Below, in pieces: positions 3,969 to 28,096 of a stretch of DNA of 64,000 nucleotides (positions within the stretch are counted from its first letter, which is position 1; every line of letters starts with the position of its first letter). Made by a program: the position numbers and the translations under genes. The notes below the pieces were generated by a model that was given only the letters and a program-made list of their open reading frames with translations, was not told the origin of the DNA and made no database searches. Source of the stretch: an uncultured Paracoccaceae bacterium (GTDB lineage: Bacteria; Pseudomonadota; Alphaproteobacteria; Rhodobacterales; Rhodobacteraceae); assembly GCA_947497985.1 (NCBI GenBank), contig CANMIX010000003.1, positions 310,001-374,000 of the forward strand, read 5' to 3'.

Positions 3969-4130
3969 AGTGTCAACGTGGCGCAAAAGCCGTTCGACAG
4001 CAAAGCAAACTGATTTAGAATGTTAAGACATGGAGATTTCACGATGAAGGACCTATGCGAGTTGGGTATTTCGAACCACATTGATGAGCAGCAGGAACCA
4101 GACGCGCGTCCATCGTTGGAGGGAAGCCTC

Positions 4131-7766: not shown

Positions 7767-7997
7767 AAACCAGTTCCCTCGTTCCGTCACATTACGCTAG
7801 GCACGCAAAGAATTCGGGTCAATCAAGACCATACGACCTGCGCACCTAGATCCTTTGCTGGTGGTGTTGTGGAAACAAATCAATCGAATTCGCGGGGATT
7901 TTTGCGATTCTAACCTCTAATATGATGCATTATTTTGCACCGGTTCGAAGTGCGGAGTAGCGTGTACGTGACGCGCAAATTGTCAAAGGCTGTAGAT
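7767..7997. promoter_or_regulatory. Divergent promoter region between flippase and GT4 genes
   Basis: 231 bases between two divergent starts, AT-rich around 7880-7945. Promoters for both genes are expected here. No operator was recognised. Confidence 0.35.
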
Positions 7998-9197
7998 GTG
8001 AAAATTGCATATGTTCTGAATACTTACCCGCAGCCTTCGCATTCTTTTATTCGACGAGAAATTCAGGCTCTGGAACGTCAGGGATTTGACGTGGCACGCT
8101 TTGCGATGCGCGCCAGCGATACGCCGTTGGTGGACAAGGGCGACAAAGCCGAAGCTGCCAAGACCGAGTATGTCCTGGCCAAAGGTCTTGGCACCTTGGC
8201 GGCTGCGCTTTTACGTGAAATCTCACAGCCAGGATTTGGAGCCGCTTTTAAACAGGCCATCGCGATGGGGCGGCGTTCGTCTACCGGCGTGCTGCGCCAC
8301 CTGGTCTATTTGGCCGAGGCAGCTTGGGTCAAACAACGGTGCAAAAGCGAAAGCATCGAACATATGCACGCGCATTTTGGAACCAACTCCGCGGCGGTTG
8401 CGATGTTTGCGCATCTTTTGGGGGGGCCAACCTTTAGCTTCACCGCCCACGGCCCAGAGGAATTTGACGCTCCGCAGTCCTTGTCCTTGGGGACAAAAGT
8501 CGACGCGTCGGCCTTTACCGTTGCCATCAGCAGCTTTGGGCGCAGTCAGTTGAGCCGATGGGCCGCGTTTGACGCCTGGGACCGGATCAAGATCGTTCAC
8601 TGCGGGATTGAGCCGCAGAAATTTTCCAATCCTACTGCGATGCCTGATGGAGATCTGCGATTGGCCGCCATCGGCCGCTTTGTCGAACAAAAAGGCCAGA
8701 TGGTATTGGTGCAAGCATTCGCGGATGTCGTGAAGGCACAACCAAAAGCGCAGCTTTACTTGATTGGCGACGGAGAGATGCGCGCCGATCTTGAAGCCGC
8801 AATCGCCGGATATGGTCTGCAGGACAATGTGACCCTCACCGGCTGGCTGGACGAGGCAGGTGTTAGGGCACAATTGGCTGAGGCCCATGCGCTGGTGATG
8901 CCCTCTTTTGCCGAGGGGCTTCCGATGGTGGTGATGGAAGCCATGGCCGCTGCGCGCCCCGTCGTCGCGACCTATATCGCGGGCACGCCAGAGTTGGTTC
9001 TTCCGGGGCAGACCGGTTGGTTGGTTCCCGCCGGGGACCAGGAGGCGCTGGCGCGCGCGATCTTGGATCTGGCGGCGACGTCATCCGACACACGGGCCAA
9101 GATGGGGCAGGCCGGGCGATTGCGCGTGCTCAAGCGTCACGACAGCGACGTTGAGGCCGCCAAATTGGCCGCACATATCCGATCCACAAAAGGTTAG
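7998..9197 (+). CDS. GT4-family glycosyltransferase (WcaL/colanic-type)
   Basis: Retaining GT-B glycosyltransferase of about 399 residues. Evidence: N-terminal 'KIAYVLNTYPQPSHSFIRREI', typical of GT4 enzymes in exopolysaccharide clusters; 'HAHFGTNSAAVA' and 'FTAHGPEEFD' in the acceptor domain; and the donor-binding C-domain 'AIGRFVEQKGQ', 'LIGDGEMR' and the E-x7-E motif 'SFAEGLPMVVMEAMAAARPVVAT'. The GTG at 7998 is chosen because the family N-terminus begins there and AAAGG lies eight bases upstream; an in-frame ATG at 7935 would add an unlike leader. Its stop codon overlaps the stop of the convergent GT2 gene in the 4 bases 9194-9197. Donor sugar unknown. Confidence 0.88.
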   Translation: MKIAYVLNTYPQPSHSFIRREIQALERQGFDVARFAMRASDTPLVDKGDKAEAAKTEYVLAKGLGTLAAALLREISQPGFGAAFKQAIAMGRRSSTGVLRHLVYLAEAAWVKQRCKSESIEHMHAHFGTNSAAVAMFAHLLGGPTFSFTAHGPEEFDAPQSLSLGTKVDASAFTVAISSFGRSQLSRWAAFDAWDRIKIVHCGIEPQKFSNPTAMPDGDLRLAAIGRFVEQKGQMVLVQAFADVVKAQPKAQLYLIGDGEMRADLEAAIAGYGLQDNVTLTGWLDEAGVRAQLAEAHALVMPSFAEGLPMVVMEAMAAARPVVATYIAGTPELVLPGQTGWLVPAGDQEALARAILDLAATSSDTRAKMGQAGRLRVLKRHDSDVEAAKLAAHIRSTKG

Positions 9198-10036
9198 CGT
9201 CCGCGTGTCCAACGGGTTTGGCTGCGAAACAGCGGCGATTTCACCGCAAGCGTGACCAGCGCGTAGGTTAGAAAACCAATCGGGTCGGAGAGAAACAGGC
9301 GCAGCACCGTGCTCTTGTTGGGCACGAACTTGTCGTCGTTGGCTAACAATTCCGGGAACAGCTGTTCGATCTCGTGCACCCCGTCGTTTTGCCGCCGCCG
9401 CACGCGCACCAGATTGCGAAACCCTTGGACCAATGGCCATTGATAGGTCGCGGCGACCTTGTGGCGTTCGTCGGGGGAAAACATCAGCCGCGCAAATGTG
9501 TCATCTGCAATGATCTTTGGCCAGGTTTCCCAACGTTGGCGTCCCTGCCGGTTCATCGCAAACAGCCCAAACCCCGGCACCCCGTGCACCACAAAAGGCA
9601 GGCGCTGCCAAAGACGGCCATAGGCGCGGCTAAAGGCGGATCCACCACCCAAGATCTGAGGTTGGCCAGAGGCATAGGCCGCGTCGTCTTGCGATAGAAC
9701 CCGATATATTTCTGGCAAGATCTGAGGAGAGACACGCACATCCGCGTCTAGGTAGACCAAAACAGCACCCCGTGCCTGCCCGTCGCCCTGGTTCAACGCG
9801 TTCAACTTGCCGCCCTCTGGGATCTCTAGCACGCTTATGTGCCAACCCGCCGGTGGTGTGGTGGAGCGTGCGATCTCTGCAGTGGCATCTGTGCAGCCAT
9901 TTGCCAAGACGATGACCTCCGCTGAAACCCCGTCCGGCAATGGGTCGCAGGCAAAGAGCGCGGCGAGGCAGGCGCCGATTTCACTGGCCTCGTTATGGGC
10001 GGGAATTAGGACGCTTAGCCCCACATCGGTGCTCAC
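9194..10036 (-). CDS. GT2-family glycosyltransferase, last gene of the PKS-NRPS/EPS operon
   Basis: Inverting GT-A glycosyltransferase of about 280 residues: 'SVLIPAHNEASEIGACLAAL' at the N-terminus, 'VIVLANGCTDATAEIA', and the metal-binding DxD in 'VLVYLDADVRVSP'. A GTG start at 10036 forms a GTGA overlap with the stop of the SGNH-glycosidase gene, so translation is coupled. An in-frame ATG at 10168 lies within that gene and is less likely. The C-terminus has one hydrophobic stretch 'GFLTYALVTLAV' that may associate with the membrane. It would add one sugar of the repeat unit. Confidence 0.85.
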   Translation of the reverse strand: MSTDVGLSVLIPAHNEASEIGACLAALFACDPLPDGVSAEVIVLANGCTDATAEIARSTTPPAGWHISVLEIPEGGKLNALNQGDGQARGAVLVYLDADVRVSPQILPEIYRVLSQDDAAYASGQPQILGGGSAFSRAYGRLWQRLPFVVHGVPGFGLFAMNRQGRQRWETWPKIIADDTFARLMFSPDERHKVAATYQWPLVQGFRNLVRVRRRQNDGVHEIEQLFPELLANDDKFVPNKSTVLRLFLSDPIGFLTYALVTLAVKSPLFRSQTRWTRGR

Positions 10037-12540
10037 TTGGCAGCCTCCAGCGCGGACCAACGCGGGTTCTTGTCGCTTAACGTGCGCAAAGCACCCCAAC
10101 TGCCCCAACGCCCGGGTGGGTAAACATCTGCATAGGCGTTGAACAATTGCCCACCGAGGTCCTGCCAACCGGCCAGCAGCTCTTGGTACAGGTGCCCCAT
10201 GTCGTCGGAATAATTGTAGTGCACAAAGAACTGCGTCAGCGTTTCATCCTCCACATGCGGACCGACGCCAACGATATGGCTGCCCCCTTCATACATGATC
10301 AGATCCAGATTGTGGGACTGGGCGACCTTGGCGTGATAGGGCAGGATCCGGTGCAACAGATCTGCCAACGTGTCTGAATCCTGACCAGAAATCAGCCCAT
10401 CACGTAGCTCGGCGGTGGCCTGTGCGCTGGCGATGTCAAATTGGTGCTCGCGGACAAATGCGCGTAACGCGCTGCCAATTAAGCCCTTTGCCCGCCCGGC
10501 CTCGTCGGCGCGTGCACGGCTGTCTGCGATCCAGGCACGGACAACATCCACATAATCGTCCCGCCCAAGCACCCCACCAAAATACCCGGTGACGGCATAA
10601 GCGTCAAAATACGCGGCCGGCGCGCGGTTCTTAGGGTCTTCAGCACGAAAAAGGGGGGCATCCAAAAGCTGTTCCTCCAGACCCAGCCAGCCCGTTTGCG
10701 TGGAAATGACCCGGACCAGACGATCGGCTGCGTCTTCGGCAAAGACGTCGCTCCAAATCTGAGACATCTCGGCGGCGCGCGCGCCGTAAAATTGCATCCA
10801 TAGGCTCTCACCACCCCAGCGCTTGCGCCCTTCGACCTCGGCCCATTGCGCCTGTTGGAATTGCCAATTCCAGACCTCATTTGAATATTCTACATAAAGG
10901 CGCAGATCCTCATCCAGCGCCTGATGCGCCAGCCGGGCGAAATTGCGCATGTAGCTGTCATCAGCCTGATGGGGCATGGAAAACCAAGGCGCCGCGCCAA
11001 GCTCGTTTGCCAGGCGCAACATGATCTCAGCTGGGACGCCGTCGATTGCCCAACTATAGTCGTGGACCAATGGGCGATCTTCCCAACCGATCTGTTGGGA
11101 ATCGTTGGTCTCCATCCAGTCCATAAACCGCAAGACTTCGAATCCATCCAAAACGTCGAGCCAACGCGGGTTGAACACCCGTCCTGCCGCAAACTCCTCT
11201 AGGTGTTCTTGTTTCACAACTGAGATATTGCGCACATAGTCGCCGGTACGCTGCCGGTCACTGCGTTGAATGCGCACCTCGACAATGCCGGGACCAGGGG
11301 TGAAATCAAACCAGACCTCGCCCGCCCCATAGCGGACGTTTTCGGCACGCCCCGTCACCTCGACAATACCATCGCCCTCAAAGCTCAACCGGTATCGCCC
11401 AACCAATGTGCGCGCCTCTTCTGGTAAATCCGCTAACAGAACGGTGCCGATAGAGCCCAACTCGGCTGGGATCGCTTTCGGCCAGCCGTCCTGATCCAGG
11501 TATCCCGCGTCCTGTAGCTCAGCCATCGTTACACCGCCCCAACGACCGGGTAGGTGACCGATCCAAGCACGCGCGGTTTTAAAGTGATCCAGAAACGGTG
11601 CTTGTGGCGACCAGTCAACAACCGAGGCCAGGTTCATTGCGATGGGTTGTTGGCGTGTCTTGCCAAAGTGGGCCTGGGACGTGGCTCGGTCTTGGTTTAG
11701 ACGCACAGGAACTGGATCCTGCGGCATGGATCCGGGATCTGGGGGAAGGGCGGTGCGTCGCGTGTCCTTGCGCGCGGCGCGCGCTGCGATCTCCTGCAAA
11801 CGTGCCGCCTGTTCTGATGAGGCGGCCTTATAAGGCGTGCCCCAACGATCTTTGAGCTGTCGTGGCAGGCCTTCGGGCGATTGTCCCGTCAGGGCTGCAT
11901 ATTGAAAGAGGCTGAGATAATAAAACCCAATGTCATTGGGGTGGATGTCGTCTGCGAAAACGTCCCGAATGCTGGTCAGACCTGGAACGGTTCCTGCGGT
12001 GATTGCGTCCTCCAAACGCGCCATCGCTTGGCCGGCTTCCAGCAGTTTGATGTTTCCACCTGTTGCGTCGTTTACATCGTTCACGACAGCTTGCCATGCA
12101 GGTAGATCCTGCCCGAGGCGTTCGCGCCAGGGTATTGCCATGCCATCGTCAAATGGGATTGTCGCCCCGGTGCCGCTGTCCAAACTGTGCCAGGTTTCCT
12201 GCAGGTAGAACTGCACCTCTGGATTACCGGCCCGTGCCAACTCATAGAACTGCGTGACGGCCTCGCGGGTATTGCTCCATTTCAAGTGATTGGCGAGGGG
12301 GATTGCTTCGGTCACAACCACTGCGTCCACGCCGGTGGGGAGTGCTGTGCGGGCGTTGATGCCTTCGGCTGCGCTGGCGTGTTGCCAGTTATAACTCAGC
12401 GGCGCGCCGTTGATGATTTGCGCCTGCACGGTTGCAGGTTGATTGCGGTCGAGCAATTGATCCAACATCTGCGGGTTTTCGTGGCCGAACAGGGAATGGC
12501 CGACAAAAACCACGGATTTCAAAACTTCAGACAGTATCAT
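10033..12540 (-). CDS. SGNH-hydrolase-like domain fused to a GH-A (GH5-like) glycosidase-like domain
   Basis: An 835-residue two-part protein. Residues about 8-260 resemble the 303-residue SGNH protein encoded just upstream: block I 'VFVGHSLFGHE', 'VDAVVVTEAIPL', 'VQFYLQETWHSLD' and a C-terminal 'DDIHPNDIGFYYLSL' giving the Asp-x-x-His pair. The rest contains a beta-rich linker then a TIM-barrel-like region with 'YVEYSNEVWNW' (candidate acid/base Glu) and 'DLIMYEGGSHIVG' (candidate nucleophile Glu), as in clan GH-A enzymes. No N-terminal signal peptide is visible. Its ATG overlaps the upstream stop (ATGA). It may deacylate, acylate or cleave the nascent polymer; the activity is not settled. 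Confidence 0.7.
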   Translation of the reverse strand: MILSEVLKSVVFVGHSLFGHENPQMLDQLLDRNQPATVQAQIINGAPLSYNWQHASAAEGINARTALPTGVDAVVVTEAIPLANHLKWSNTREAVTQFYELARAGNPEVQFYLQETWHSLDSGTGATIPFDDGMAIPWRERLGQDLPAWQAVVNDVNDATGGNIKLLEAGQAMARLEDAITAGTVPGLTSIRDVFADDIHPNDIGFYYLSLFQYAALTGQSPEGLPRQLKDRWGTPYKAASSEQAARLQEIAARAARKDTRRTALPPDPGSMPQDPVPVRLNQDRATSQAHFGKTRQQPIAMNLASVVDWSPQAPFLDHFKTARAWIGHLPGRWGGVTMAELQDAGYLDQDGWPKAIPAELGSIGTVLLADLPEEARTLVGRYRLSFEGDGIVEVTGRAENVRYGAGEVWFDFTPGPGIVEVRIQRSDRQRTGDYVRNISVVKQEHLEEFAAGRVFNPRWLDVLDGFEVLRFMDWMETNDSQQIGWEDRPLVHDYSWAIDGVPAEIMLRLANELGAAPWFSMPHQADDSYMRNFARLAHQALDEDLRLYVEYSNEVWNWQFQQAQWAEVEGRKRWGGESLWMQFYGARAAEMSQIWSDVFAEDAADRLVRVISTQTGWLGLEEQLLDAPLFRAEDPKNRAPAAYFDAYAVTGYFGGVLGRDDYVDVVRAWIADSRARADEAGRAKGLIGSALRAFVREHQFDIASAQATAELRDGLISGQDSDTLADLLHRILPYHAKVAQSHNLDLIMYEGGSHIVGVGPHVEDETLTQFFVHYNYSDDMGHLYQELLAGWQDLGGQLFNAYADVYPPGRWGSWGALRTLSDKNPRWSALEAAK

Positions 12541-13448
12541 TTGAGCGCTGCTGCCTCGGAAATTCCGGTACGTGGCACCGAGGTTACGACTTGCCAGACA
12601 ATCTCTTGTACCTGAGCGGCCCCTTCAGGCGAAAAAGCGCGCGCCTGTGACCCGTCTGGCAGGGTCAGCAGATGGGGCAGACCTTGAGGGTTTTGATGAT
12701 AGAGCACAGAAAAATGGGTGAGCGCGATGACATAAGCCCCCAGATCATTGAGGTGTATGGTATCTGAAAACAGATCTTCGCGCCTTTGCAAACCGTCGAT
12801 TTCTCCGGCTTCGGCAGCACGAGCAACTGCAGCCATGACTTGCCCGGCCGGGATCAGATAAAGCGGATCCGCGGGATTTCGGCGGCTGTCCGATCCCAAA
12901 ACCCGGCCAACCCACAGGGCCTCAAGATCCGCGTCGATACGGTCCAACCATCCAGTAGGATCATCCAGATTATGCCAGGTTTCATACAGATAGATGCGCG
13001 GAGCCTTGGGCGCATTGCGTGCCAGATCAGCCCAGCGTCGCAGGTACTTGGCAGAGCCGAAATATCTGATCGCATCGCGCAGCTCGACCATTTCCGTCAG
13101 AACCACGGCGTCGTAGTCACCGGATCCGATTGCATCGCGCGCATCACGATAACTGGGCGCTGAATTTGAAATCTCAAAATCGCGAATGGGCAGGTCAGGT
13201 TCCCAGTGTTCCTTGAGCGAGGTGCCCGATCCCAATTGGCTGTTCCAATGATGCGCGGTTGGGGCGAGCTGCGCCAGCATGTGCGGCATCACCGGTCCCA
13301 CCAGTGAATGTCCCAGATGATAGACGGACATGGCCCCTTGTGGCGCATCTAATGCGGGGACGGGGACCGATGCGGCTTCTGCAAACCCAGACCAGGATCC
13401 AAAGGGCAAAAGGGCCATCAGCCCAAGTATCGCACGACGTCCAGTCAT
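12537..13448 (-). CDS. Exported SGNH-hydrolase-like protein
   Basis: A 303-residue protein with an N-terminal signal, 'TGRRAILGLMALLPFG' then a cleavage-like 'AEAAS'. The twin arginine before the hydrophobic core would suit Tat export. The mature part has SGNH-type motifs: 'YHLGHSLVGP' (Ser of block I), 'DAVVLTEMVEL', 'IYLYETWHNLDDPTGW' and 'DTIHLNDLGAYVIAL' (Asp and His). It is paralogous to the N-terminal domain of the next gene. It starts within an ATGA overlap with the phosphopantetheinyl transferase stop and ends in another ATGA overlap. A periplasmic acyl esterase or acyltransferase acting on the polysaccharide is inferred from context. Confidence 0.68.
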   Translation of the reverse strand: MTGRRAILGLMALLPFGSWSGFAEAASVPVPALDAPQGAMSVYHLGHSLVGPVMPHMLAQLAPTAHHWNSQLGSGTSLKEHWEPDLPIRDFEISNSAPSYRDARDAIGSGDYDAVVLTEMVELRDAIRYFGSAKYLRRWADLARNAPKAPRIYLYETWHNLDDPTGWLDRIDADLEALWVGRVLGSDSRRNPADPLYLIPAGQVMAAVARAAEAGEIDGLQRREDLFSDTIHLNDLGAYVIALTHFSVLYHQNPQGLPHLLTLPDGSQARAFSPEGAAQVQEIVWQVVTSVPRTGISEAAALK

Positions 13449-14164
13449 AGGGGCCTCTGTTGTAGATGATCCGCGACAGCGCGCGGCAGTGCTGCGGCGG
13501 TGATGATCACACCCGCCCCAATTGCAAACCGACCTGCGATTTCATCGGACGCTTTGAATGGAGCACGATCTGTGGTGAAACGCGCCAAAAAACGGTTGCC
13601 TTGGCTGTCGATCTCAAGCTCCATCCCATCAAACCCAAAATATGTTTCACTCAAACCATATTGGCATTTATACGCGGCTTCTTTGGCGGAAAAAATAAGT
13701 TTGCCCATTTGGCCCGGGTTCTTTTGGCTGCGGATCCAGTCCTGTTCACTGGCAGAGCAGATTGCATCCCACAGTTCGGGTTTAAGCGGCGTGTCTTCCT
13801 CAACATCCAGTCCAAGTCCCGCATATTCGTTCGTGTAAGCCACTGCTGCCATCGCACAGCCCTGTGTGTGGCTGATCGAGCCGGTCAATCCCTGTGGCCA
13901 AATCGGTGCACGCTTCTCGCTCACGGGTACGGCCATTGGCGGGTGGCCGAGGTCGCGCATGGCTTGATGGGCAACAGCGCGTCCTGCCGCGAACTCGCGC
14001 CGGCGTTTGTCTACAGCGCGCGGTGAAAGCCCCGCCGCTTCCTCAGGGAACGGGTTGGGCTGCGGTTGATGCGGATCCGTGACACAGACGCGGACAGCCG
14101 AGCCAAACAACCCGCGTACCAAGTCGTGACGTTCGGCGGAAAGTCCGGGGGACGTGGTCTGCAT
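13445..14164 (-). CDS. 4'-phosphopantetheinyl transferase (EntD/Sfp type)
   Basis: Converts apo carrier proteins to the holo form with the phosphopantetheine arm of CoA. Motifs: 'KRRREFAAGRAVAHQAM', 'GSISHTQGCAMAAVA', the metal/CoA motif 'GLGLDVEED', and 'LIFSAKEAAYKCQY' (the WxxKEAxxK-type helix). The 239-residue length fits the EntD subfamily. Its ATG overlaps the NRPS stop codon (TAATG), so it is co-translated with the megasynthase it most likely activates: one PCP in the NRPS and one ACP in the PKS. Confidence 0.92.
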   Translation of the reverse strand: MQTTSPGLSAERHDLVRGLFGSAVRVCVTDPHQPQPNPFPEEAAGLSPRAVDKRRREFAAGRAVAHQAMRDLGHPPMAVPVSEKRAPIWPQGLTGSISHTQGCAMAAVAYTNEYAGLGLDVEEDTPLKPELWDAICSASEQDWIRSQKNPGQMGKLIFSAKEAAYKCQYGLSETYFGFDGMELEIDSQGNRFLARFTTDRAPFKASDEIAGRFAIGAGVIITAAALPRAVADHLQQRPL

Positions 14165-17100
14165 TACACCCGCGCCTTGCGGTTGGCGCGCATGGCACGG
14201 CGTTTGGACATCCGGTCGGCGCGGGTCGCCTCATCCACCGTATCGGTTTCCGGCTCATCCTTGACCTTGGTTCCGGACAGGCCTTCGATGTGATCGGCCA
14301 ATCCGGATAGGGTCGGAAAGCGGAAGATATCGGTGATCGACAGACGCGTTGCGGTGAGAACCTCGCGGATTTCCCGGTGGGCCTGAACCGCGAGCAGGGA
14401 ATGGCCGCCAAGAGCAAAGAAATTGTCCTGCACGCCAACGTCTGAAACGCCAAGGATACGTGACCAGATCTCGGCGATTTGCGCCTGCGCGCCTGCGGTT
14501 GGAGCGACCGTGGCTGCGGTGGCCTGTCGCGCAAGTTTGGGGTCTGGCAGCGCTTTGCGGTCGATTTTCTTGTTTGGTGTCAGCGGGAACGCTTCGAGCG
14601 TTACGATATGGGCAGGCACCATGACCTCAGCCAGTTTGCCCGCCAGGGACTTTTGAACGGCCTCCTGCGAAATCGCTGCTGAGGTCGTGACGTAGCCCAC
14701 CAACCGTTCGCCTTCGCCGATCTTGCGGGGCATGACAACGGCTGCTGTGACACCGGGGTACGCGGCAAGTGCTGCCTCGATCTCACCCAGTTCGATGCGT
14801 TGGCCGCGGATTTTGACCTGGTGGTCGGTGCGGCCCAGAAAATCGATCCGCCCATCTGCACGCCAGCGGACCAGATCGCCGGTGCGATAGAACGTGCCCG
14901 GCTTGTGGGGGACCTCGACAAAACGATCAGCCGTCATCTCAGTACGTTGCCAGTAGCCTTTGGTGACACCCGCGCCGCCGATAAGCAATTCACCCGGCGC
15001 ACCAATAGGTTGGGGATCACCGGCATCATTCACAATTAGGATATCGGTGTTGGCAATTGGCGTTCCGATATCTGCAACACCCGTAGGCACCCCGTCCAAT
15101 GTCTGCACCGTTGACCAGATTGTGGTTTCAGTTGGCCCGTACATATTGTGGATCTGCGCGGAGCTGTTTTCACGCAATGCGGCGACCAGATCGCCGGGCA
15201 GGGCTTCACCGCCGACCAGCAGATGCTGCAGACGGCCTGCAGCCATCCGCGCCTCGTCGTTCATCGTGATCATCCGCGCCATGGAGGGCGTGCACTGCAT
15301 ATGGGTGACGTTGTGACGGATCATCTGCGCCGCGAGTGAGAAATCGTCATCCGCCAGCTCTTGCGGCGCGTTAGACAGGCGCAAGACATCGGCCAACGGT
15401 TTCAACCCCTCCAAAACCACCTCGGGGGCAATTCCATAGTCGATCAGACAGGCGATCTCGTCCACGCCAATGCGTTTAAGCTCTTCGACACGCGCGCAAG
15501 CGTCGTTGATCGTGCCAAACAGTCCGGAGTCTTCAAAGTATCTCTCAAAGGCGAAATCAAGGATCGCTTCCAGTTCTTCACCCGACAAGCTGCCAAGGTC
15601 GACCTCAAACGGGTTATTCACCCCTTCGGGCCGCTTAAACGCCGGGAAAGCCCATGCGTATTGTTTGATCAGGCCAGCGGCCGACCGCAGGTAATCCTTC
15701 ATCGGTTCACGCGCCACGGACCGGGCTTCGTCGCGCGTGTTGGCGAGATAGGTGTGCAACATCAACGTGACGGTGAAGTCCGCCGGATCATGACCTGCTG
15801 CACGCAGCGCGTCGTGATAGATGCGGATCTTTCCCGCGACCTCCTCAATGCTTTGTCCCAGAAGATGCGTCAGAACATTTGCGCCGATCGAGCCGGCTTC
15901 GCGCCAGGTTTCTGGATTGCCTGCAGTTGTGACCCAGACTGCCAACTCTTTTGACACCGGACGTGGTTGCGAGATGACGCTGTGCATGCCGCCATCTTTG
16001 CGCGCAAAGGAGACCTCTTCTCCGCGCCACAGTTTGCGCACGGTCGCAATGCTTTCAAACAGCGCAGGTTTGTTGGCGGGCGGCGTGTTCTCGGGCCGCA
16101 GAATAAAGTCATCAGGCTGCCAGCCCGAGGCAAAGCCCAGACCCGTACGCCCATTGGTGAGGTTGTCGATCACACCCCATTCTTCGGCAATCCGGGCTGG
16201 ATGATGGAGCGGTGCCACACATGAGCCCGCCCGCACGGCCATATTCTGCGTCACTGCAGCAACAGCTGCACCTGTAACCGAGGGATTTGGGTAAGGACCG
16301 CCAAATGCGTGAAAGTGACGTTCTGGGGTCCAGACTGCATTGAAACCGTTCTGGTCAGCAAACTTTGCACCTTCCAGCAGCAACTCATATTTCTTTGGCC
16401 CAACCCCATCATCATTGCCCCAGTAAAAGAGGTTGAACTCCATCTTGCGATCACTTGTTGCAATGGGACCGTTGGACAGTTGTAGACGGCTTTCATCGCT
16501 CGACAGAACCAGTTTAAAGCCGCGTGACAGGGTCCAGAACAGCTCCAGCACCGAAATGTCAAACGACAGGGAAGTTACAGCCAGCCAGCTGTCACCGGGC
16601 TGATATGGAATGCGCTGGTCCATTCCGGTGAAGAAGTTGGAGACATTGGCGTGTGTCACCATCACCCCTTTGGGCAATCCGGTCGAGCCTGAGGTGTAGA
16701 TCAAATAGGCCAGATCTTCGCCGTTGCACCCGCTGACAACATTGTCGGGGCATTCAACGTTTTGCAGTGTCTCGATTTCCAACACGGCGGCCTTGGATGT
16801 CGGGAGGTTGGCGGCCAAGGCTGATTGGGTGACAATGACAGAAGCTTCGCTGTCGGAAACATAATGCGCAATACGGTCAGCAGGGTAGGCCGGATCCAGC
16901 GGCACATAGGCGCCGCCCGCTTTGAGCACGCCAAAGGCCGCCACCACCAAATCAACAGAGCGGCCCACATAGATCCCAACATGTGCACCGGGCGTTACCC
17001 CCATATCCTGCAGGCGCTGGGCCACTGCGTTGGCACGCGCGTTCAATTGCGCATAGGTCAGCGTCTCAGCTTCAAATACCAAAGCCGTCGCATCCGGTGT

Positions 17101-19754: not shown

Positions 19755-22700
19755 TCGGCTGCTTCCTTGCGTCTTGCGGACGAACCACGAAATTTCTGAT
19801 CTGCGGCATCCAAAACCGCTTTGACGTTGCTTGCCAAAACCGAAACATTTGGAACCAGAACCATGCTGTCGTGATTGCCAGGGACTTCGACAACGTCGAC
19901 ATTCGCCGCCCAGCGAGACCAGTCATTGTCTGCAAAAACATATTCACGCTCAGAAGACACCCAGTTGTCGTTGCTCACCCGCCAATGGCGATCAAGGGGT
20001 GGGCGGAACAATGTCATCGGTCCTTGCCAAGGTTTAAGGGAATAAACGCTGATCGCTTCACGGAAGGCGAGCTCGATCTTGCGGTTGTTGAATTCAGGGG
20101 CGTGACCGGCTTCGGCTGGCTTGGCTCGGCGTTTCTCTAACTCCCAGGCGATCCGGTTTTTGCCCCATTCCCAAAGGTATCCCGCACCCTTGGACTTCAA
20201 TTCCTGCACCTTGATGAGCGCTTTGTCTTGCCGCGTCAGCTCTGGGCGCATCGGAAGCGGAGTATCCAAAAGGACCAGCGCCGCGGTCTCTTCGCCTTTG
20301 GCGTTCAACTGTTGCGCCATTTCATAAGCGGTCAGCCCTCCACCGGAAAAGCCACCCAACAGATAAGGTCCGTCGGGTTGAATACTGCGGATCTCTGCCA
20401 AATAATCATGTGCGGCGTCTTGCAAGCGCCTGTGCGGTTCATCTGATCCAATCAGACCTTTGGCTTGTAAGCCATACACCGGGCGATCTTGGCCAACCTG
20501 CAAGGCCAGATGACGTAGGTTCAAAACATTGCCGAACATTCCCGCCACCAGGAAAAATGGGCGCCGCCCAGTGCCGTCACCGGGATGCAGCGTCACCAGG
20601 TACTTATGCGCGGCTGCGTCTTGGCTCTGGGCTGCGTTTGGCGCGCCATCGTCTGCAGTAACACTGCCACCGGTGCGGGCGATGATCTTGTCCGCAAGTG
20701 CAGTAACGCTTGGCGCTTCGAACAGAACGGAAATAGGAAACTCTACGCCAAATGCTCGTTTTATCTGCGCAAACAGCCGCACAGCGATCAGAGAATGCCC
20801 ACCAAGGTCAAAGAAACTGTCTTCGACTCCAACTTGTGCGACTCCAAGGAGCGAGGCGAAGATATCCGCCAATGTCTCTTCGACCGGATTGGCCGGTGCG
20901 ACATAATCCGTGTCCAGCTGCGGGCGTTCAAACGTCTGCTGATCAGCTTGCGCTTCGCTGCTGTATCCGGCCTGAGCGATCAAATCCTGTAAGGGAAGCG
21001 AGGAGACTACAACCTGTGACGCACCACTGGCCAATGCGCGCTCCAAGGCATCACCGCCTTCTTCAGAGCGGATCCCATTGGCAATATTGTGCTGCAATCG
21101 GCGTTCATCGCCAGACAAAGGTGCCGCTGATTGCGGTTTTGCCAGGCCGATCTGTTCCGCGCTGTGGTCCGCCGCGACTGTGGTCGCAGCCTCAAACCCA
21201 CCGGCCAGACGTTTCATCTGAAACCCGGAAATTTCAACCAGTGTCTGACCGTCTGGATCGGTCAGCGTCACGTCAAAAGTTGCAAAACCTTCCTCTTCAG
21301 CGTTGGCAAGACTCATATGACTGTGGATAGACGCGGTCAATGGCTTGTGGATGCGGATCCGGTCATAGCTCACAGGCACCCACAGCGCGTCCTCTTTGTA
21401 ACTCGGCACCAAGCCGATAGCCCAGCCTGTTGCCAGATCCATCAAACCTGGGTGCAATTGGCATCCATCATCCGTGGCGCTTTCCGCCAGATGTAGAGTA
21501 GCAAGACCTTCGCCTGCACCGGTTGCCCCGTGCGAAAGCACATGCCACCGCGGGCCGAACGCAAGATGGGCTTCTTGGGGTGAACGCAGGCGGCCCGCCA
21601 CCGGTGCCATTTGCTCTGCGCAGCGTATGCGCACTTGGGCAAGATTGACGCCGTTGCCTGCGCTTTGCGCATCGAGCCGCACCCGGGCTTCGGCTATCAA
21701 CGCATAACCGTCTGTGACAGCGCCTAAAATTTGGACTTCATATCCGCTATCTTCGGCAAGCAGACGTAGGATTAATTCACGCGTTTCGCCGTCTGCTACA
21801 ACAAACGGGCGCAGAAAATAGAGATCTTCCAGATCAAAGCCGCCCTGGATGCCTACGCCCTGCAACGCTTCAGTTATCAGTTCGATGTAACCGGTTCCGG
21901 GCACAAGTGCGGTGCCGGCTTTGGTGCGGTGCTCATCCACCAGCCAATGGGTCGACGCGATGTCAGCCGCAAAGAAACGTTGCCCAAAGCCGTCAAACCC
22001 CTGACTCTCAAACAGGGCTAGATCGCAAGAGGTGCGCGCGCTTGGCCCGGTGCCACCTAGGCGCGCAGCCATTGCATCGGACGCCATGCCGACATCCCCC
22101 CAAACGCCCCAATTGATCGCAACTGTGCGCGCTGTATCCGGTTTGGCATTTTGCTGTTTGGCCCAAGCATTGAGAAACTCGTTGGCCGCGATGTAATCGA
22201 CTTGCCCCGCCGGGCAGGTCACCGTCGATGACGATGAAAAGAGGGCGATGAAATCTAGATCTGAACCGCCAAAGACCTGTTCGACCACCCGAAGCCCGGC
22301 CACTTTGGGGGCAAAAACCTGGGCGATCTGATCTTCGCTTTTGGCCAAGATCGGACCGTCGTTGATAAAACCTGCCCCATGGAACAGACCTGAAATACCT
22401 CCAAACGCGGCTTGGATCTGGGTTTTGACGTTTTGCATATCACCACTGTTGGCGACGTCACCACCCAACGCGAGCACTCTTCCACGACCGATTTCTTCGA
22501 GCGTTTGCACCGCCCGGATGCGTCCTGCCTCTGTATTGGCACTGCTGTGGCTGGCGAGATAGCTGTCCCAGGTATCGCGGGGCGGCAAGGACTTGCGCGC
22601 GACCAAGGCGACATTGGCGCCGTAGTTCTGCATCAGATGTGCCGCTACCGTCAGACCAATCCCGCCGAAACCGCCGGTGATCACATAGGTGCCACCTTGG

Positions 22701-25700
22701 GAAATTGGTGTTGCATCGGCGTCCTCCAGCGGCATCTTGCGCCAATCCCGCGCATAGCGTTTTGGACCGCGCCAAATAGCAGTCTCGGTGCCGGGTTCCG
22801 CCAATAACTCTTCCAACACGCGTGGGGTGATGTCGGGGGCCTCTTTGCCCTGCAATCGGTCCATTACAGTTGGTTTGCTAGGCAGTTCAATGTCGACCGA
22901 CGTGCAGGTCAGGCCCGGGATCTCACGTGGCATGACGCCTAAGGGCCCGGCAATCATTGCTTTTTCGGGATAAGGCAAGGGTTCCACACGATATTGCGCG
23001 GCTCCGGTGGTAAAGGTGGTGACCTGAACAGCGTGGTCAAAATCCGCATTGCCGAGTGCCTGTGCCAGCGCCGTCAGGGAGTAAAACCCCATTTCTAGAT
23101 TCCGGTCAAAAAACGAAGACCCCGGTCGAAATGTCTCTGTCTGTGTGACCAGCCAGAAATGAGCGACGCGATTTGGCAGCCGATCTTGTTCGGCGAGATC
23201 GTTCAAGACCGCCTCGTAGCCATAACGCCCCTCTTCGGGAGCCAGTATAAATTGGTCCTTGGCAAGACGGGCAAATGTGTCGCCGGGTTTGACCGTGGCC
23301 ACAAAATGGCCCGCTGCGCGCAAAGCCGCGATGGCGGGAGCTGCGACCCCAGCGTCGTCTTCAAAGATCAGCCAGTTCTGAGTGGCTTCAGAAAGATCGC
23401 TTGCTATGTCAAACGCGCAGTCCGCCAATCGCGGACGCCAAGTCGGGCGATATCCCCAATCACGTATGTCGTCCTGCCTGGTCGGATGCGGTAGCTCTTC
23501 GACATGAGCGGCTTGTCCCGGTTCAATGAAATACCGGCTGCGTTGAAAGGCATAAGTTGGCAGCGGCAGGCGGTGACGTTTAGCCTCGCCCCAAATCTGT
23601 GCCCAGTCGGCTTCGACCCCGCAGGCCCAAAGGCGGCCGATCACACCAAAGAAATATGCGTCATCCATTACATCCTGGTCTGGATGGCGCAGGGAGCTGA
23701 GGACTTGACCTGCCTGAACCGTTGGCGACATCTGCGCCAAAGAGCTGAGTGCCTTGCCCGGACCAACCTCAAGGAACACGCGCCCGGGCTGGGTTGCAAG
23801 TGTCTCGACACAGTCGGCAAACCGGACCGTATTGCGCAGTTGGGCAACCCAGTAGTCTGGGTCCGTCGCCTGTTCCGATGTTAGTGCAACGCCTGTGCGG
23901 TTGGACATGATCGGCAAGGTCGGCGCAGTGAGCGACAGGGTCCTCAGGAACGCGCCATAATCGCCAAGGATGACGTCCAGCATCCGGCTGTGGGCGGCGA
24001 TATCGATGGGGATACGTTGATGGTCTACGTCCTGGGCAATCAGTTTTTGCGACAGACGATCCAACGCATCCTGAGGGCCAGAAACAGCCGTAAGATTTGG
24101 TGCATTTACGCTGGCAATATCCAGGTCATCGCCGATCAGGGCCTCCACGTCGCTGAGCGGCAAGGAAATCGACAACATGCCCCCTGCAGGCACCGTATCA
24201 AACAGACGTCCACGCAAGAGAACAAGGTCGATGCAGTCTTCAAATGACAGAACACCTGCCAAACAGGCTGCGGTATTCTCTCCCATCGAATGGCCGACCA
24301 GAGCGGTGGGTTTAACGCCCCAGCTGATCCACAATTGCGCCAGCGCATATTCGACAATCATGATCAGCGGCAATTGAACCGACGGTTTTTGCAGCTTGGC
24401 ATTGGCTTGCGCTTCGTCACCCTCTTCGGGAAGCCAGATCGCGCGGATGTCGTAGTCCAGACTTTTTTGCAGATGGTCGAGCCCTTGGTCCATGATGTCT
24501 GCAAAAACCGGCTCGGTTTCATAAAGGTCGCGCGCCATGCCAGCGTATTGCGCGCCGCCGCCAGGGAACATGAACACAACTTCTGGCGATGTCCCCAGAT
24601 GATCATGGGTGAAGACCCGGCGCGGGTTCACCTCCGTCAAGGCTTCGGCGGCCTCGGCTGCGGTTTCTGCAACCACGACCCGCCGTTTGGCAAATCCACG
24701 ACGCCCTTCCTTGAGGGTAAAGGCCACATCGGCAAGATCTAGGTCCGGTCGGCTGCGCAAATGGTCAGCCAGTGCTGCTGTATTGGCCTCTAGCGCGGCT
24801 TTGGTCTGGCCAGAGACGCACAGCACATGGAACGGAAAGTCACTTTCATCCGAGTCGCCAGGTTCAGGCGCTTCTTCCAAAATCGCATGGGCATTGGTTC
24901 CACCCACACCCAGTGCGTTAACGGCCCCGCGTCGCGGCCCTTTGTGTGGTTCCCATGGCGTAAGTGTGTTGGCAACTTTGAAGGGGGAGGTCTCAAAATC
25001 AATGGCTGGATTTGGGGCCTCATAACCTAAGGACGGTGGGATTTCCTTGTGCTTGAGCGCGAGCGCGGTTTTGGCCAGCCCCGCAATGCCGGCGGCTGTG
25101 TCCAGATGGCCAATATTGGTTTTGACCGAGCCAAGGCGGCAGTAGCCGACGTCCGTTGTGGTGTCGCGGTAGGCCTCGGACAGGGCTGCCACTTCAATCG
25201 GGTCACCCAGATATGTGCCGGTGCCGTGACATTCGACATAATCAATTGTCTCTGCGGCGACCTGTGCGGCCTCCAATGCTTTGCGCACAGCGGCAGATTG
25301 GCCGCCCACGGACGGAGCCAGATAGCCCGCTTTGTCCGCGCCATCGTTGTTGATGGCAGAGCCTTTGATGACCGCCCAAATGTGGTCACCATCGGCGATT
25401 GCATTATCCAGACGGCGCAGGGCAACGGCCCCGGCTCCGGAACCAAAGACCGTGCCTTGGGCCCGATGGTCGAAGGCATGGCACAACCCATCCGGAGACA
25501 GAATTTCGTTTTCTTTGAACAGATAGCCGCGCCCCTGGGGCAGTTCGATTGTCACACCACCGGCGAGCGCCATCCCGCACTCTCCTTTACGCAGCGCTTC
25601 GCAGGCGTAATGCACCGCCACCAGCGATGTCGAACAGGCGGTCTGAATATTAACTGAGGGCCCTTTGAGGTCAAAAACATGGCTGACCCGGGTGGTCAGG

Positions 25701-26197
25701 AAATCCTTGTCGTTTCCGGTGTGGCGCAGCAGGAACATGCCCACATCATCCACCAAACCCGGGTTCGAGCAGATATTGAAATAAAAGTAGCTCCCCATCC
25801 CGCAGCCTGCATAGACGCCAATGGGGCCGTCTGTGGTCTCTGGCACATGCCCTGCTTGTTCCATGGCCTCCCAGGCGACTTCCAGAAATTTGCGGTGCTG
25901 AGGGTCCAAAATGGCCGCCTCTTTGGGAGAAAACCCAAAGAATTCCGCGTCAAACTGATCATACCCGTCGAGCTTTGCGGCCGCTTTTACGTAATTGGGA
26001 TCTGACAACAAAGCAGGGCGTTCACCGGCAGCAAGGATATCCGCTTCTTCAAGCGGTTGGATCGAACAGATGCCCGATTTCAGGTTGTCCCAATAGTGTT
26101 GCGCAGACTGTGCGCCCGGCAGTGAGACCGACATGCCGACGATGGCAATGTCACCTGCCAAATTTCGATCCGTCTTGCGGTTTTCTTCAGTCGTCAT
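19751..26197 (-). CDS. Type I polyketide synthase, single module KS-AT-KR-DH-ACP-TE
   Basis: 2148 residues. KS: 'QTACSTSLVA' with Cys near 188, plus 'VECHGTGTYLGD' and 'NIGHLDTAAG' for the two His. AT: 'GFPGGG'-like 'FMFPGGGAQYAG' and active site 'VGHSMGENTAA' near 636. About 890-1150: likely structural half of KR. KR: 'TYVITGGFGGIGLTV' near 1175 and 'SSSSTVTCPAGQVDYIAANEF' catalytic Ser/Tyr/Asn near 1324-1338. DH follows the KR: 'DEHRTKAGTALVPG' near 1422 with HxxxxGxxxxP, and 'LHPGLMDLATGWA' with Asp. ACP: 'FDLGGHSLIAV' near 1799. TE: 'LLGGFSGGGLTAYEM' near 1951 with 'GNHDS' His. One extension, reduction and dehydration, then release. No enoylreductase. It is coupled to its neighbours by ATGA/GTGA overlaps. 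Confidence 0.93.
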   Translation of the reverse strand: MTTEENRKTDRNLAGDIAIVGMSVSLPGAQSAQHYWDNLKSGICSIQPLEEADILAAGERPALLSDPNYVKAAAKLDGYDQFDAEFFGFSPKEAAILDPQHRKFLEVAWEAMEQAGHVPETTDGPIGVYAGCGMGSYFYFNICSNPGLVDDVGMFLLRHTGNDKDFLTTRVSHVFDLKGPSVNIQTACSTSLVAVHYACEALRKGECGMALAGGVTIELPQGRGYLFKENEILSPDGLCHAFDHRAQGTVFGSGAGAVALRRLDNAIADGDHIWAVIKGSAINNDGADKAGYLAPSVGGQSAAVRKALEAAQVAAETIDYVECHGTGTYLGDPIEVAALSEAYRDTTTDVGYCRLGSVKTNIGHLDTAAGIAGLAKTALALKHKEIPPSLGYEAPNPAIDFETSPFKVANTLTPWEPHKGPRRGAVNALGVGGTNAHAILEEAPEPGDSDESDFPFHVLCVSGQTKAALEANTAALADHLRSRPDLDLADVAFTLKEGRRGFAKRRVVVAETAAEAAEALTEVNPRRVFTHDHLGTSPEVVFMFPGGGAQYAGMARDLYETEPVFADIMDQGLDHLQKSLDYDIRAIWLPEEGDEAQANAKLQKPSVQLPLIMIVEYALAQLWISWGVKPTALVGHSMGENTAACLAGVLSFEDCIDLVLLRGRLFDTVPAGGMLSISLPLSDVEALIGDDLDIASVNAPNLTAVSGPQDALDRLSQKLIAQDVDHQRIPIDIAAHSRMLDVILGDYGAFLRTLSLTAPTLPIMSNRTGVALTSEQATDPDYWVAQLRNTVRFADCVETLATQPGRVFLEVGPGKALSSLAQMSPTVQAGQVLSSLRHPDQDVMDDAYFFGVIGRLWACGVEADWAQIWGEAKRHRLPLPTYAFQRSRYFIEPGQAAHVEELPHPTRQDDIRDWGYRPTWRPRLADCAFDIASDLSEATQNWLIFEDDAGVAAPAIAALRAAGHFVATVKPGDTFARLAKDQFILAPEEGRYGYEAVLNDLAEQDRLPNRVAHFWLVTQTETFRPGSSFFDRNLEMGFYSLTALAQALGNADFDHAVQVTTFTTGAAQYRVEPLPYPEKAMIAGPLGVMPREIPGLTCTSVDIELPSKPTVMDRLQGKEAPDITPRVLEELLAEPGTETAIWRGPKRYARDWRKMPLEDADATPISQGGTYVITGGFGGIGLTVAAHLMQNYGANVALVARKSLPPRDTWDSYLASHSSANTEAGRIRAVQTLEEIGRGRVLALGGDVANSGDMQNVKTQIQAAFGGISGLFHGAGFINDGPILAKSEDQIAQVFAPKVAGLRVVEQVFGGSDLDFIALFSSSSTVTCPAGQVDYIAANEFLNAWAKQQNAKPDTARTVAINWGVWGDVGMASDAMAARLGGTGPSARTSCDLALFESQGFDGFGQRFFAADIASTHWLVDEHRTKAGTALVPGTGYIELITEALQGVGIQGGFDLEDLYFLRPFVVADGETRELILRLLAEDSGYEVQILGAVTDGYALIAEARVRLDAQSAGNGVNLAQVRIRCAEQMAPVAGRLRSPQEAHLAFGPRWHVLSHGATGAGEGLATLHLAESATDDGCQLHPGLMDLATGWAIGLVPSYKEDALWVPVSYDRIRIHKPLTASIHSHMSLANAEEEGFATFDVTLTDPDGQTLVEISGFQMKRLAGGFEAATTVAADHSAEQIGLAKPQSAAPLSGDERRLQHNIANGIRSEEGGDALERALASGASQVVVSSLPLQDLIAQAGYSSEAQADQQTFERPQLDTDYVAPANPVEETLADIFASLLGVAQVGVEDSFFDLGGHSLIAVRLFAQIKRAFGVEFPISVLFEAPSVTALADKIIARTGGSVTADDGAPNAAQSQDAAAHKYLVTLHPGDGTGRRPFFLVAGMFGNVLNLRHLALQVGQDRPVYGLQAKGLIGSDEPHRRLQDAAHDYLAEIRSIQPDGPYLLGGFSGGGLTAYEMAQQLNAKGEETAALVLLDTPLPMRPELTRQDKALIKVQELKSKGAGYLWEWGKNRIAWELEKRRAKPAEAGHAPEFNNRKIELAFREAISVYSLKPWQGPMTLFRPPLDRHWRVSNDNWVSSEREYVFADNDWSRWAANVDVVEVPGNHDSMVLVPNVSVLASNVKAVLDAADQKFRGSSARRKEAAE

Positions 26198-26451
26198 TTC
26201 GCGTTAGTCCCAAAATAAACAGTCAACGGGTCAAAAGTCAGTTTTACCAAGGCAGGATGTTTTGCGGCAGTTTTCGTCGGCCAAGCAGACATACCGTTGC
26301 AAACGGCAGAGCTTGATTTGCGTCTACTGGTCAACATCCCCTGTTGCTCCAAGCGCTTCTGCGCTCTGAATAAGGGCAGTATGCAACATATTGGACCTTG
26401 ATGAGGAGGTTTTGTGTGATTGGCGGCATTCGATTGTGCAAAAAGAGGCAT
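26194..26451 (-). CDS. Doubtful 85-residue reading frame filling the wzy-PKS gap exactly
   Basis: An ATG at 26451 overlaps the Wzy stop (TGATG), and its TGA overlaps the PKS ATG (ATGA), so it would join the operon without a gap. The protein is basic, Ser- and Cys-containing, and matches nothing I know. Third codon positions are AT-rich and include ATA, AGA and TTA, unlike the neighbours, so chance is quite likely. The same 253 bases may simply hold a PKS promoter or leader. Confidence 0.25.
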   Translation of the reverse strand: MPLFAQSNAANHTKPPHQGPICCILPLFRAQKRLEQQGMLTSRRKSSSAVCNGMSAWPTKTAAKHPALVKLTFDPLTVYFGTNAK

Positions 26452-27914
26452 CACATGACGGTCCGCTTCTCTTTGGGGTTCACTGTCTTACCTATTGCAA
26501 ATCGGCCTTCAAAGAGTTGCTTTGGTTCGGAATACAGTTCCGGGTTTTTCAGCCGTTCAGCATAGCCAAGGATCGCGCCTGCGCAGAGCCATGTGAACGG
26601 AATAAGTGTGGCGTTCAGCAGCATATCCACCAAGGTGACGGTCAAAACGATAATCAAAACTCCGATATAGGGCGAAACCTCTGTTGGGTTATGGCGTCGA
26701 ATTTGAACCCAGAAATAGAAGAGTGGCAGGGTCAAGAGGCCCGTTTCGGCGATATAGCCAAACCAGCCAAAAGTCCCAAAGACGATAATCCAACGCCCAT
26801 CGGGGATAGAAATGATTTCAGCGGTTTCAATATCGCGGACAAGATTGCGCCCCCATCCGCCCCAGCCAAACAGAGGTTTTTCGGCAGCGCGGCCCAGCAT
26901 CAACTCTTCATTGTCGAACCGATATCCAAGCGATTGCGCGCGCTCAGCACTGAACGCCTGCGCCTGCGCCATAATTGCATCAAGCGGAATGATTTCAAGA
27001 TTTCGCAACATCGGGTACACGACCGCCACAACTCCTAGGATGACACAGATTTTAAGCTGCGTCCTGAGCGGGAACCACAGGAGCAAAGGTATAAAGCACA
27101 ACGCATAAAGTTGTGTGGCGAGGCTTTTGCAAAGGAACAAAAAGATAAACAGATACAACAGCGCTATACCGTAGCGCATACGCGTCTTGTCTTTGGATAA
27201 TTTGAACAGGATCGCAGCACTTAAGAGTGCGTATGTCACAAAAAGAGAGTACCAGAGCGGGTGTTCCAAAAACACCAGCGGGCGATAGCCGCCCTGCCGG
27301 ATCGTCTGGGTGAAGTCGTGTTGAAAGAAGCCATAGACCCAAATATTTACCTGCGGGCTCAGGCGTATTTCGATCAATCCAGGGATAGAATAAAATAGAA
27401 CCGCGATAACCAGCGCGATAGCAATCTCCCTTTGGCCCTCGGGCGAGGAAAAAAACCGGCGTCCGACAAAAAATGGGATTAAAACAATCAACTGGTTCGC
27501 GATTACCGACGCCAAGTCGATCAGACGCAGGCCCGGCACCGCTCCATTGAAGAACACGGTCGGGGCTGCGTTTTGGACGGATTGAAAAACCAGCGTATCG
27601 CGATTGGTTAAAACCGTCGGAACAACACCTAAAACAAAGAGCACCACCAGTGCCCGGGCAATCAATGGTTTAGGCCAAAAAGAGATTCGTTTTTTGAGGA
27701 CAAAAGCGCACAGAACAAAGACAACAAGGGATGGGATTGTCGATTTGTTCAAATCTGGAACCAATGGAAGATCAAATTCTGCTACAGGCGGCAAAATTAA
27801 GTATCCGGCAACCAGGCACCACAGCACCGCCCGTTCCAGTGGCAGCCTCTGAAACAGGATAATACTGACCACAGGCCAAGCTAGTAACATTAATGAGGCA
27901 ATCGAATTAGGCAT
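26451..27914 (-). CDS. Wzy-like O-antigen polymerase/ligase family protein
   Basis: 487 residues, about 11-12 predicted membrane helices separated by short loops and one large periplasmic loop around residues 300-385. That loop holds 'LMLGRAAEKPLFGWGGWGRN', the Gly-Trp signature common to WaaL/Wzy proteins. It would polymerise lipid-linked repeat units in the periplasm. It is first in the minus-strand run that continues into the PKS, and divergent from the GT26 gene across about 180 bases. Confidence 0.85.
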   Translation of the reverse strand: MPNSIASLMLLAWPVVSIILFQRLPLERAVLWCLVAGYLILPPVAEFDLPLVPDLNKSTIPSLVVFVLCAFVLKKRISFWPKPLIARALVVLFVLGVVPTVLTNRDTLVFQSVQNAAPTVFFNGAVPGLRLIDLASVIANQLIVLIPFFVGRRFFSSPEGQREIAIALVIAVLFYSIPGLIEIRLSPQVNIWVYGFFQHDFTQTIRQGGYRPLVFLEHPLWYSLFVTYALLSAAILFKLSKDKTRMRYGIALLYLFIFLFLCKSLATQLYALCFIPLLLWFPLRTQLKICVILGVVAVVYPMLRNLEIIPLDAIMAQAQAFSAERAQSLGYRFDNEELMLGRAAEKPLFGWGGWGRNLVRDIETAEIISIPDGRWIIVFGTFGWFGYIAETGLLTLPLFYFWVQIRRHNPTEVSPYIGVLIIVLTVTLVDMLLNATLIPFTWLCAGAILGYAERLKNPELYSEPKQLFEGRFAIGKTVNPKEKRTVM

Positions 27915-28096
27915 TCGAGCCCTTTACCTGTACAAATACCCATTGGTTTATGGCTGACTAACCCAATTTGCAAATTTGACCTGACCAATTGCAGAGTTGG
28001 AAAGCCTCTTGCTTTTTGCTTTAGTGTTATGGCCTCAATGAGGCGTCTTGAGGTTTGCAACGTGACATTCGTTGCGGACACTACGGGGGATGGGGT
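27915..28096. promoter_or_regulatory. Divergent promoter region for the wzy-PKS-NRPS operon and the GT26 gene
   Basis: The only sizeable gap upstream of the coupled minus-strand run, so the main operon promoter should lie here. The sequence is AT-rich around 27940-28030. No operator was recognised. Confidence 0.4.

Follow-up and report, generated by a model that had tools for sequence, protein, structure and literature searches.

Carrier-protein chemistry meets cell-surface polymers in several described systems. In Dlt D-alanylation, an adenylation (A) domain and a carrier protein load an amino acid destined for a polymer of the cell surface, alongside the SGNH-like protein DltD and the MBOAT protein DltB. 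The type I polyketide synthases (PKSs) RkpA and WcbR have a fatty-acid-like domain set that includes an enoylreductase (ER). These PKSs occur in capsule loci (PMC3908369), the viosamine island of Pseudomonas syringae links acp, vioS and vioR to an acylated sugar (PMC3927599), and acylation of lipid-linked intermediates has been proposed to be essential in a related exopolysaccharide (EPS) pathway (PMC11340318). Here we analyse a stretch of 64,000 nucleotides (the window) from an uncultured Paracoccaceae bacterium (GCA_947497985.1, contig CANMIX010000003.1, positions 310,001–374,000; host genome of 4.19 Mb in 47 contigs), in which a type I PKS, a GT2 glycosyltransferase (GT2a) and a nonribosomal peptide synthetase (NRPS) are encoded within a Wzx/Wzy locus. 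With moderate confidence, we propose that this two-protein line, running from NRPS to PKS, is a fixed part of the Wzx/Wzy EPS pathway and supplies a small acyl group for incorporation into the repeat unit. Conservation of the PKS–GT2a–NRPS block and of its glycan setting, as read from sequence comparison, is the strongest result.

Each of the known systems shares part of this organization. RkpA and WcbR are likewise type I PKSs encoded among polysaccharide genes (PMC3908369), whereas the window PKS has an NRPS partner and a thioesterase (TE), lacks a separate ER and is found in a Wzx/Wzy setting. Wzx/Wzy, WecG, GT2s and glycosidases recur in promonan/holdfast-type EPS pathways, which also require an acyl step for EPS (PMC11340318), although there the acyl step is carried out by an OafA-family acyltransferase. 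In the viosamine island, genes for a carrier protein, a ketosynthase and a ketoreductase are also tied to an acylated sugar, but they encode separate small proteins, serve a flagellin glycan and have no NRPS. Dlt differs in that it involves no ketide extension and relies on DltB; no MBOAT match was found among the 18 window proteins scanned.

For the NRPS, the best solved-structure matches are to the initiation module (F-A-PCP) of LgrA from linear gramicidin synthetase, which has the same N-terminal formyltransferase ahead of the A and peptidyl carrier protein (PCP) domains, but has no monooxygenase and whose product is a peptide antibiotic. The glycine modules of the myxothiazol and melithiazol synthetases belong to MtaG and MelG. 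In these synthetases, the glycine A domain is interrupted between A4 and A5 by a monooxygenase that hydroxylates the alpha carbon, and cleavage of the carbinolamide yields an amide plus a glyoxylyl thioester (PMC10204066, PMC11342130). The window NRPS has the same combination of a glycine A domain and a flavin monooxygenase between A4 and A5; however, the MtaG/MelG module ends the chain, leaving an amide, whereas the window module would start it, and the window NRPS differs further in its formyltransferase, the absence of HHxxxDG, its PKS partner and its glycan locus.

In roseobacters, the PKS Inhi_1972 and the NRPS Inhi_1974 of Phaeobacter inhibens have been named (PMC4062626), PKS and NRPS-like clusters lacking known relatives have been reported (PMC11225332), and both genome papers class PKS/NRPS genes as secondary-metabolite genes. 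No earlier description of an NRPS–PKS line in a Wzx/Wzy locus was found in excerpts of the open-licence literature, which omits most subscription papers. The original prediction, made from the window sequence, regarded carrier-protein decoration of a polysaccharide as undescribed. That idea has precedents in the viosamine island and in Dlt, and PKSs of capsule loci are known as well, but a modular NRPS–PKS line in a Wzx/Wzy locus looks new.

Conservation of the PKS–GT2a–NRPS block and its glycan setting

NRPS relatives (E ≤ 1e-150; mostly full length, some cut) were found in 141 of the 394 genomes sampled from the family, the window's own genome included, and in 140 of 393 genera. They are present in 7 of 385 genomes of the class sample, 5 of the 7 being from the same family, and in 16 of 398 genomes of the phylum sample, 10 of which are again from this family. 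Among the fetched loci, which are labelled with L-numbers, Epibacterium ulvae 4A10 has the closest named NRPS (87%), in a search that may skip very near records.

Of 59 named loci, the 44 that exceed 24 kb were counted and the 15 shorter ones left out. PKS, GT2a and NRPS are all present in 42 of the 44, and 41 of these 42 core loci carry at least one glycan marker (WecG, Wzy, Wzx, Wzz, kinase or Bac_transf), L053 being the exception. In a second sample of 60 further carriers, reduced to 57 by dropping 3 duplicates, the PKS is found in all 57, GT2a in 55 and a glycan marker in 53. When the core loci of both samples are pooled, 93 of 97 have markers and 88 have Wzx or Wzy in the stretch first read. 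Wzx, Wzz and kinase genes turned up in the next 20 kb of three loci initially without a marker (L156, L171 and L178), two of which also have Wzy there, so that with the lengthened flanks 96 of 97 core loci have markers. By contrast, none of 20 control stretches elsewhere on the carriers' contigs (20 kb, against 24–27 kb for the named loci, and with flanks not lengthened as they were for the exceptions) contains a marker, and two have a glycosyltransferase match. With hidden Markov models (HMMs), again none of the 20 has a marker above 50 bits; a kinase-like match of 44 bits was seen in L150 and GT4 matches in L142 and L150. A chance neighbourhood is ruled out by this comparison (93/97 versus 0/20), which bears out the lasting link with Wzx/Wzy glycan assembly that had been predicted and argues that the line decorates the polysaccharide. 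Fisher p-values for this contrast disregard the relatedness of the loci and are given no weight.

The block is kept in at least three arrangements, namely, beside Wzy/WecG and both SGNH genes, beside Wzy without SGNH genes, and between Wzx and Wzz, and its survival in all of them is a second argument for decoration. A relative of the 4'-phosphopantetheinyl transferase (PPTase) is found at 82 of the 97 core loci. Pairwise gene distances correlate with r of 0.74–0.98, as expected from co-inheritance, and are not discriminating.

A third argument comes from the window itself. On its minus strand, the genes for PKS, GT2a, NRPS, PPTase, SGNH protein, SGNH-glycosidase and GT2b overlap at all six junctions by 4, 4, 1, 4, 4 and 4 bases (26197 to 9194), exactly as originally noted, joining GT2s and assembly line in one chain. 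In relatives, such overlaps are common but not universal (PKS/GT2a in 19 of 48, GT2a/NRPS in 26 of 49). The window also contains an initiating transferase, Wzx, Wzz and glycosyltransferases, the complement expected of a Wzx/Wzy-dependent polysaccharide locus apart from the polymerase, for which there is a Wzy-like candidate with a sub-threshold Wzy_C match. Gene order, domains, catalytic residues, block conservation and glycan setting can all be read from the sequences.

Two loci have unusual neighbours. In Hydrogenophaga (L063:1543-24625), the neighbours of the block include a Wzx relative, an SGNH gene, a second NRPS (2022 aa) and, judged by eye, an ExeA-like ATPase. In L171, Pfam sulfotransferases at 2630-3592 and 16795-17853 flank a PKS–GT2a–NRPS–PPTase block.

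Predicted chemistry of the NRPS and PKS

The ten-residue code of the window A domain is DILQLGMIWK, which we take, by known code tables and positions, to be a glycine code; among 57 NRPSs, all 55 complete codes read DILQ[MLFY]GM[IV]WK. The TIGR04020 monooxygenase domain, a member of the luciferase-like monooxygenases (background in PMC8739492), occupies residues 764–1114, between the A-domain parts 536–748 and 1117–1331, with A4 and A5 placed by eye. The Asn, His and Asp of the formyltransferase are present in the window NRPS and in 50, 52 and 53 of the 57 NRPSs, respectively. The linker that follows (residues 280–530) was labelled condensation-like by eye; a structure model of it has a mean pLDDT of 89.3. 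A working condensation domain is ruled out, since the linker lacks HHxxxDG; HHxxxD occurs in 4 of the 57 NRPSs (L083, L088, L091 and L096).

The NRPSs end in a basic tail, M-[SA]-[KR]-R-x-x-M-R, in 45 of 57 cases, with looser forms elsewhere, for example in L085 and L086. In co-directional relatives outside the family block (L085, L086, L118, L119, L122 and L125), the NRPS gene precedes that of the PKS. Together, this gene order and the basic tail point to a hand-over from NRPS to PKS.

The proposed synthesis would begin with the PPTase arming the carrier proteins of both NRPS and PKS. The A domain would then load glycine, the formyltransferase would cap its nitrogen, and the inserted monooxygenase would hydroxylate the alpha carbon, as in the myxothiazol and melithiazol synthetases. 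By analogy with these, an A4–A5 insertion in a loading module that has a formyltransferase makes formyl-hydroxyglycine or a glyoxylyl unit the likely starter offered to the PKS, to which the NRPS would dock through its basic tail.

In the PKS, the columns for the ketosynthase (KS) Cys and two His, acyltransferase (AT) Ser, ketoreductase (KR) Tyr and Asn, dehydratase (DH) His and Asp, and acyl carrier protein (ACP) Ser are kept in all 47 aligned sequences, and those of the TE triad in 46. The AT motifs GHSMGE and AAHS match neither of the usual extender classes. By a rough rule that sometimes enters the KS or uses a too-long start, the stretch ahead of the KS is net negative in 36 of 46 listed PKSs. 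The PKS would add one malonyl-type unit, reduce it and perhaps dehydrate it, giving a C4 acyl group of the 4-formamido-3,4-dihydroxybutanoyl or -butenoyl type or, upon collapse of the hemiaminal, of the 4-oxo-3-hydroxybutanoyl type. The domains thus fit one amino acid plus one ketide, in agreement with the small product envisaged before. In a metagenome-assembled genome (L080:4657-11173), the PKS is split across two overlapping frames, which may be an assembly error.

It is very improbable that the PKS is instead a capsule-type lipid synthase like RkpA/WcbR, making iteratively a lipid for a polysaccharide anchor. Type I PKS genes do have precedent in capsule loci (PMC3908369), but Pfam finds no separate ER domain in the window PKS, where PF13561 matches only below threshold and in overlap with the KR, and the NRPS partner, the TE and the surrounding Wzx and Wzy-like proteins also speak against such a role.

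Proposed attachment to the glycan and alternative roles

We infer that the acyl group is attached to the glycan before export. In the cytoplasm, the TE or an enzyme still to be recognised would transfer it onto one sugar of the lipid-linked repeat unit; that sugar would be added or extended by GT2a, which is the constant partner of the pair; Wzx would flip the unit and Wzy polymerise it; and the SGNH protein and SGNH-glycosidase, where present, would edit it. The TE and the SGNH proteins had been put forward as transfer candidates. The TE looks intact and the window encodes two SGNH proteins, but SGNH proteins are present at just 37 of the 97 core loci, which rules out a general transfer role for them; where they occur, they may act in editing or transfer of acyl groups.

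A possible counterpart to the assembly line was found among 31 family genomes that lack the NRPS at the cut-off. A PKS match (E ≤ 1e-100) is present in 8 of them, spanning approximately the KS-AT part only, and a Wzy relative in 5. In L127 and its near twin L128, and likewise in L129, a GT2 (29–34% identical to GT2a) comes after Wzy, then a Pfam sulfotransferase (L127:11942-12937, L128:7318-8313 and L129:12008-12907) and GT2c, and no PKS or NRPS is found at these Wzy loci. The occupation of the assembly-line position by a decoration enzyme, seen in two genera only, is suggestive and is a further argument for decoration.

Several observations weigh against this reading. The loci are related, so that the counts are not independent. 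L053, a core locus, has only GT4 and SGNH genes besides GT2a and no marker in 60 kb. Of the 42 named core loci, 34 have a Wzy relative close to the block, compared with 17 of 55 from the second sample, where one side has just 4–5 kb of flank. In the window, Wzy lies 253 bp upstream of the PKS, outside the overlap chain, and is ruled out by this gap as a member of the translational chain; the assembly-line/GT chain that had been described as coupled into a Wzy operon is better worded as a coupled assembly-line/GT operon within a Wzx/Wzy locus. We recognised no acyltransferase shared among the loci, and acyl transfer by the TE is a guess. The residue four positions after the DH Asp, usually Gln or His, is Gly in the window PKS. 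Finally, the pattern named beforehand as contrary, the NRPS–PKS pair without glycan genes, does occur: no glycan genes were found within 60 kb of the pair in the distant relatives L119, L122 and L125, of which L119 matches the window in its domain set, and neither GT2a nor a glycan marker in 60 kb of L209, a family member. In L119, L122 and L125, the pair forms a small orphan assembly line.

These four loci, together with a TE intact in 46 of 47 PKSs, hydrolytic release being its usual outcome, favour a free secreted small molecule (a signal, butenolide or chelator) that travels with EPS genes because both serve surface life. We regard this as rather unlikely, given that the glycan setting holds across three gene orders, that a GT2 sits inside the coupled chain and that Wzx is the sole transporter among the scanned glycan-locus proteins. 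Other loci do have glycan genes nearby: when the flanks were extended and searched with HMMs, Wzx, WecG and Bac_transf were seen immediately adjacent in L120, WecG and Bac_transf approximately 18 kb away in L118, and an SGNH gene plus GT4s at 12–20 kb in L123. The PKS of L086 (Henriciella) is adjacent to a Wzx-family flippase (Polysacc_synt_3, 266 bits), which the tblastn screen at >50 bits did not pick up. In a quick PKS tree of 55 rows, L118, L119, L122 and L125 form one branch with support of 100, L126, L086, L123 and L085 have long branches, and the glycan setting needs one change (48 glycan, 4 none; L085, whose flank is too short to judge, L123 and L053 set as unknown).

Alternatively, GT2a could glycosylate the assembly-line product as an aglycone, the glycoconjugate being exported by Wzx or starting or ending chains. 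GT2a is the closest partner of the pair, and the KR and monooxygenase should yield hydroxyl groups; however, Bac_transf and WecG, the usual chain starters, are present in the window, and L207 retains PKS, NRPS and Wzz/kinase relatives without GT2a, making this role improbable.

Under the decoration reading, it is conceivable, and we suggest tentatively, that a modular NRPS–PKS line was captured into Wzx/Wzy loci, perhaps once, and kept in about one-third of the sampled Rhodobacteraceae genera for repeat-unit synthesis, and that its glycine-derived N-formyl, alpha-hydroxy C4 acyl group, which may be a hemiaminal able to form a lactone or an aldehyde, provides the slime with a reactive group that could serve, for instance, in cross-linking or adhesion. 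If the line does decorate EPS, the assembly line of 141 of 394 sampled genomes would represent cell-surface chemistry and not a diffusible metabolite. Modular thiotemplate enzymes would join glycan biosynthesis, uniting thiotemplate chemistry and glycan polymerisation in one biopolymer; an unusual, testable substituent would be predicted; and the finding would bear on surface attachment of these bacteria.

In two of the loci, additional domains or proteins are seen. L123:2-2166 encodes an Acyl_transf_3 protein and an SGNH-like protein beside the divergent PKS and NRPS, and in the L086 copy of the line (L086:10001-23687) the NRPS has an extra methyltransferase inside.

Organization of the locus and accessory genes

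Features of the window are listed in Table 1. A scan for sigma-70-like sites found none within the 253-bp gap and 1 in 26150-28900, against 2.4 expected.

Table 1. Genes and domains of the glycan locus, with window coordinates
Feature	Position	Strand	Evidence
Initiating sugar-phosphate transferase (Bac_transf)	3105..3968	+	PF02397
CapB/Wzc-like P-loop ATPase, named by eye	4020..4994	+	Sole match CbiA/ParA-type, 19.8 bits, cut-off 25.4
Wzz chain-length protein	5117..6382	+	PF02706
Wzx flippase	6399..7790	-	PF13440
GT4 glycosyltransferase, convergent	7935..9197	+	
GT2b glycosyltransferase, start GTG 10036	9194..10036	-	
SGNH domain fused to clan-A-like glycosidase barrel, 835 aa, no signal peptide by eye	10033..12540	-	
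SGNH hydrolase/transferase-like protein, 303 aa, signal-like N-terminus (by eye)	12537..13448	-	
PPTase	13445..14164	-	PF17837, PF01648
NRPS, 1520 aa: formyltransferase - condensation-like linker - A (glycine code) [luciferase-like monooxygenase] - PCP - basic tail	14164..18726	-	
Conserved basic NRPS C-terminal tail, probable docking element	14167..14229	-	M-[SA]-[KR]-R-x-x-M-R
MupA/Atu3671-type luciferase-like monooxygenase inserted in A domain	15385..16437	-	TIGR04020, 463.8 bits, cut-off 244.45
NRPS formyltransferase domain	17875..18522	-	PF00551, PF02911
GT2a glycosyltransferase, 343 aa, between PKS and NRPS	18723..19754	-	PF00535
Type I PKS, 2148 aa, KS-AT-KR-DH-ACP-TE	19751..26197	-	Pfam
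PKS TE domain, S1951, D1978, H2109	19862..20515	-	Low end placed from His motif
Intergenic stretch, 253 bp, ahead of PKS, possible promoter region of assembly-line operon	26198..26450	-	
Wzy-like polymerase, 487 aa	26451..27914	-	Wzy_C, 24.0 bits, below cut-off 31.7
WecG/TagA/CpsF glycosyltransferase	28055..28879	+	PF03808
GT2c glycosyltransferase	28849..29805	-	PF00535

In the 303-aa SGNH protein, S48, G73, N95, D229 and H232 are invariant in 17 of 17 sequences. The corresponding S16, G45, N84, D197 and H200 of the 835-aa SGNH-glycosidase, as well as its putative glycosidase acids E555 and E751, are invariant in 14 of 14. A structure model of the latter protein resembles SGNH and clan-A folds, and PatB, a peptidoglycan O-acetyltransferase, is among the weaker Foldseek matches. 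Relatives of the SGNH-glycosidase are also encoded in non-carriers (L130:3205-5445 and L131:15138-17222), the L130 copy having a weak sub-threshold RTX repeat match that hints at a secreted form.

Genes resembling TamB and TamA (by eye) at 29815-35066 of the window border the glycan locus; TamB matches were seen at 5 of the 42 named core loci, a count limited by flank length.

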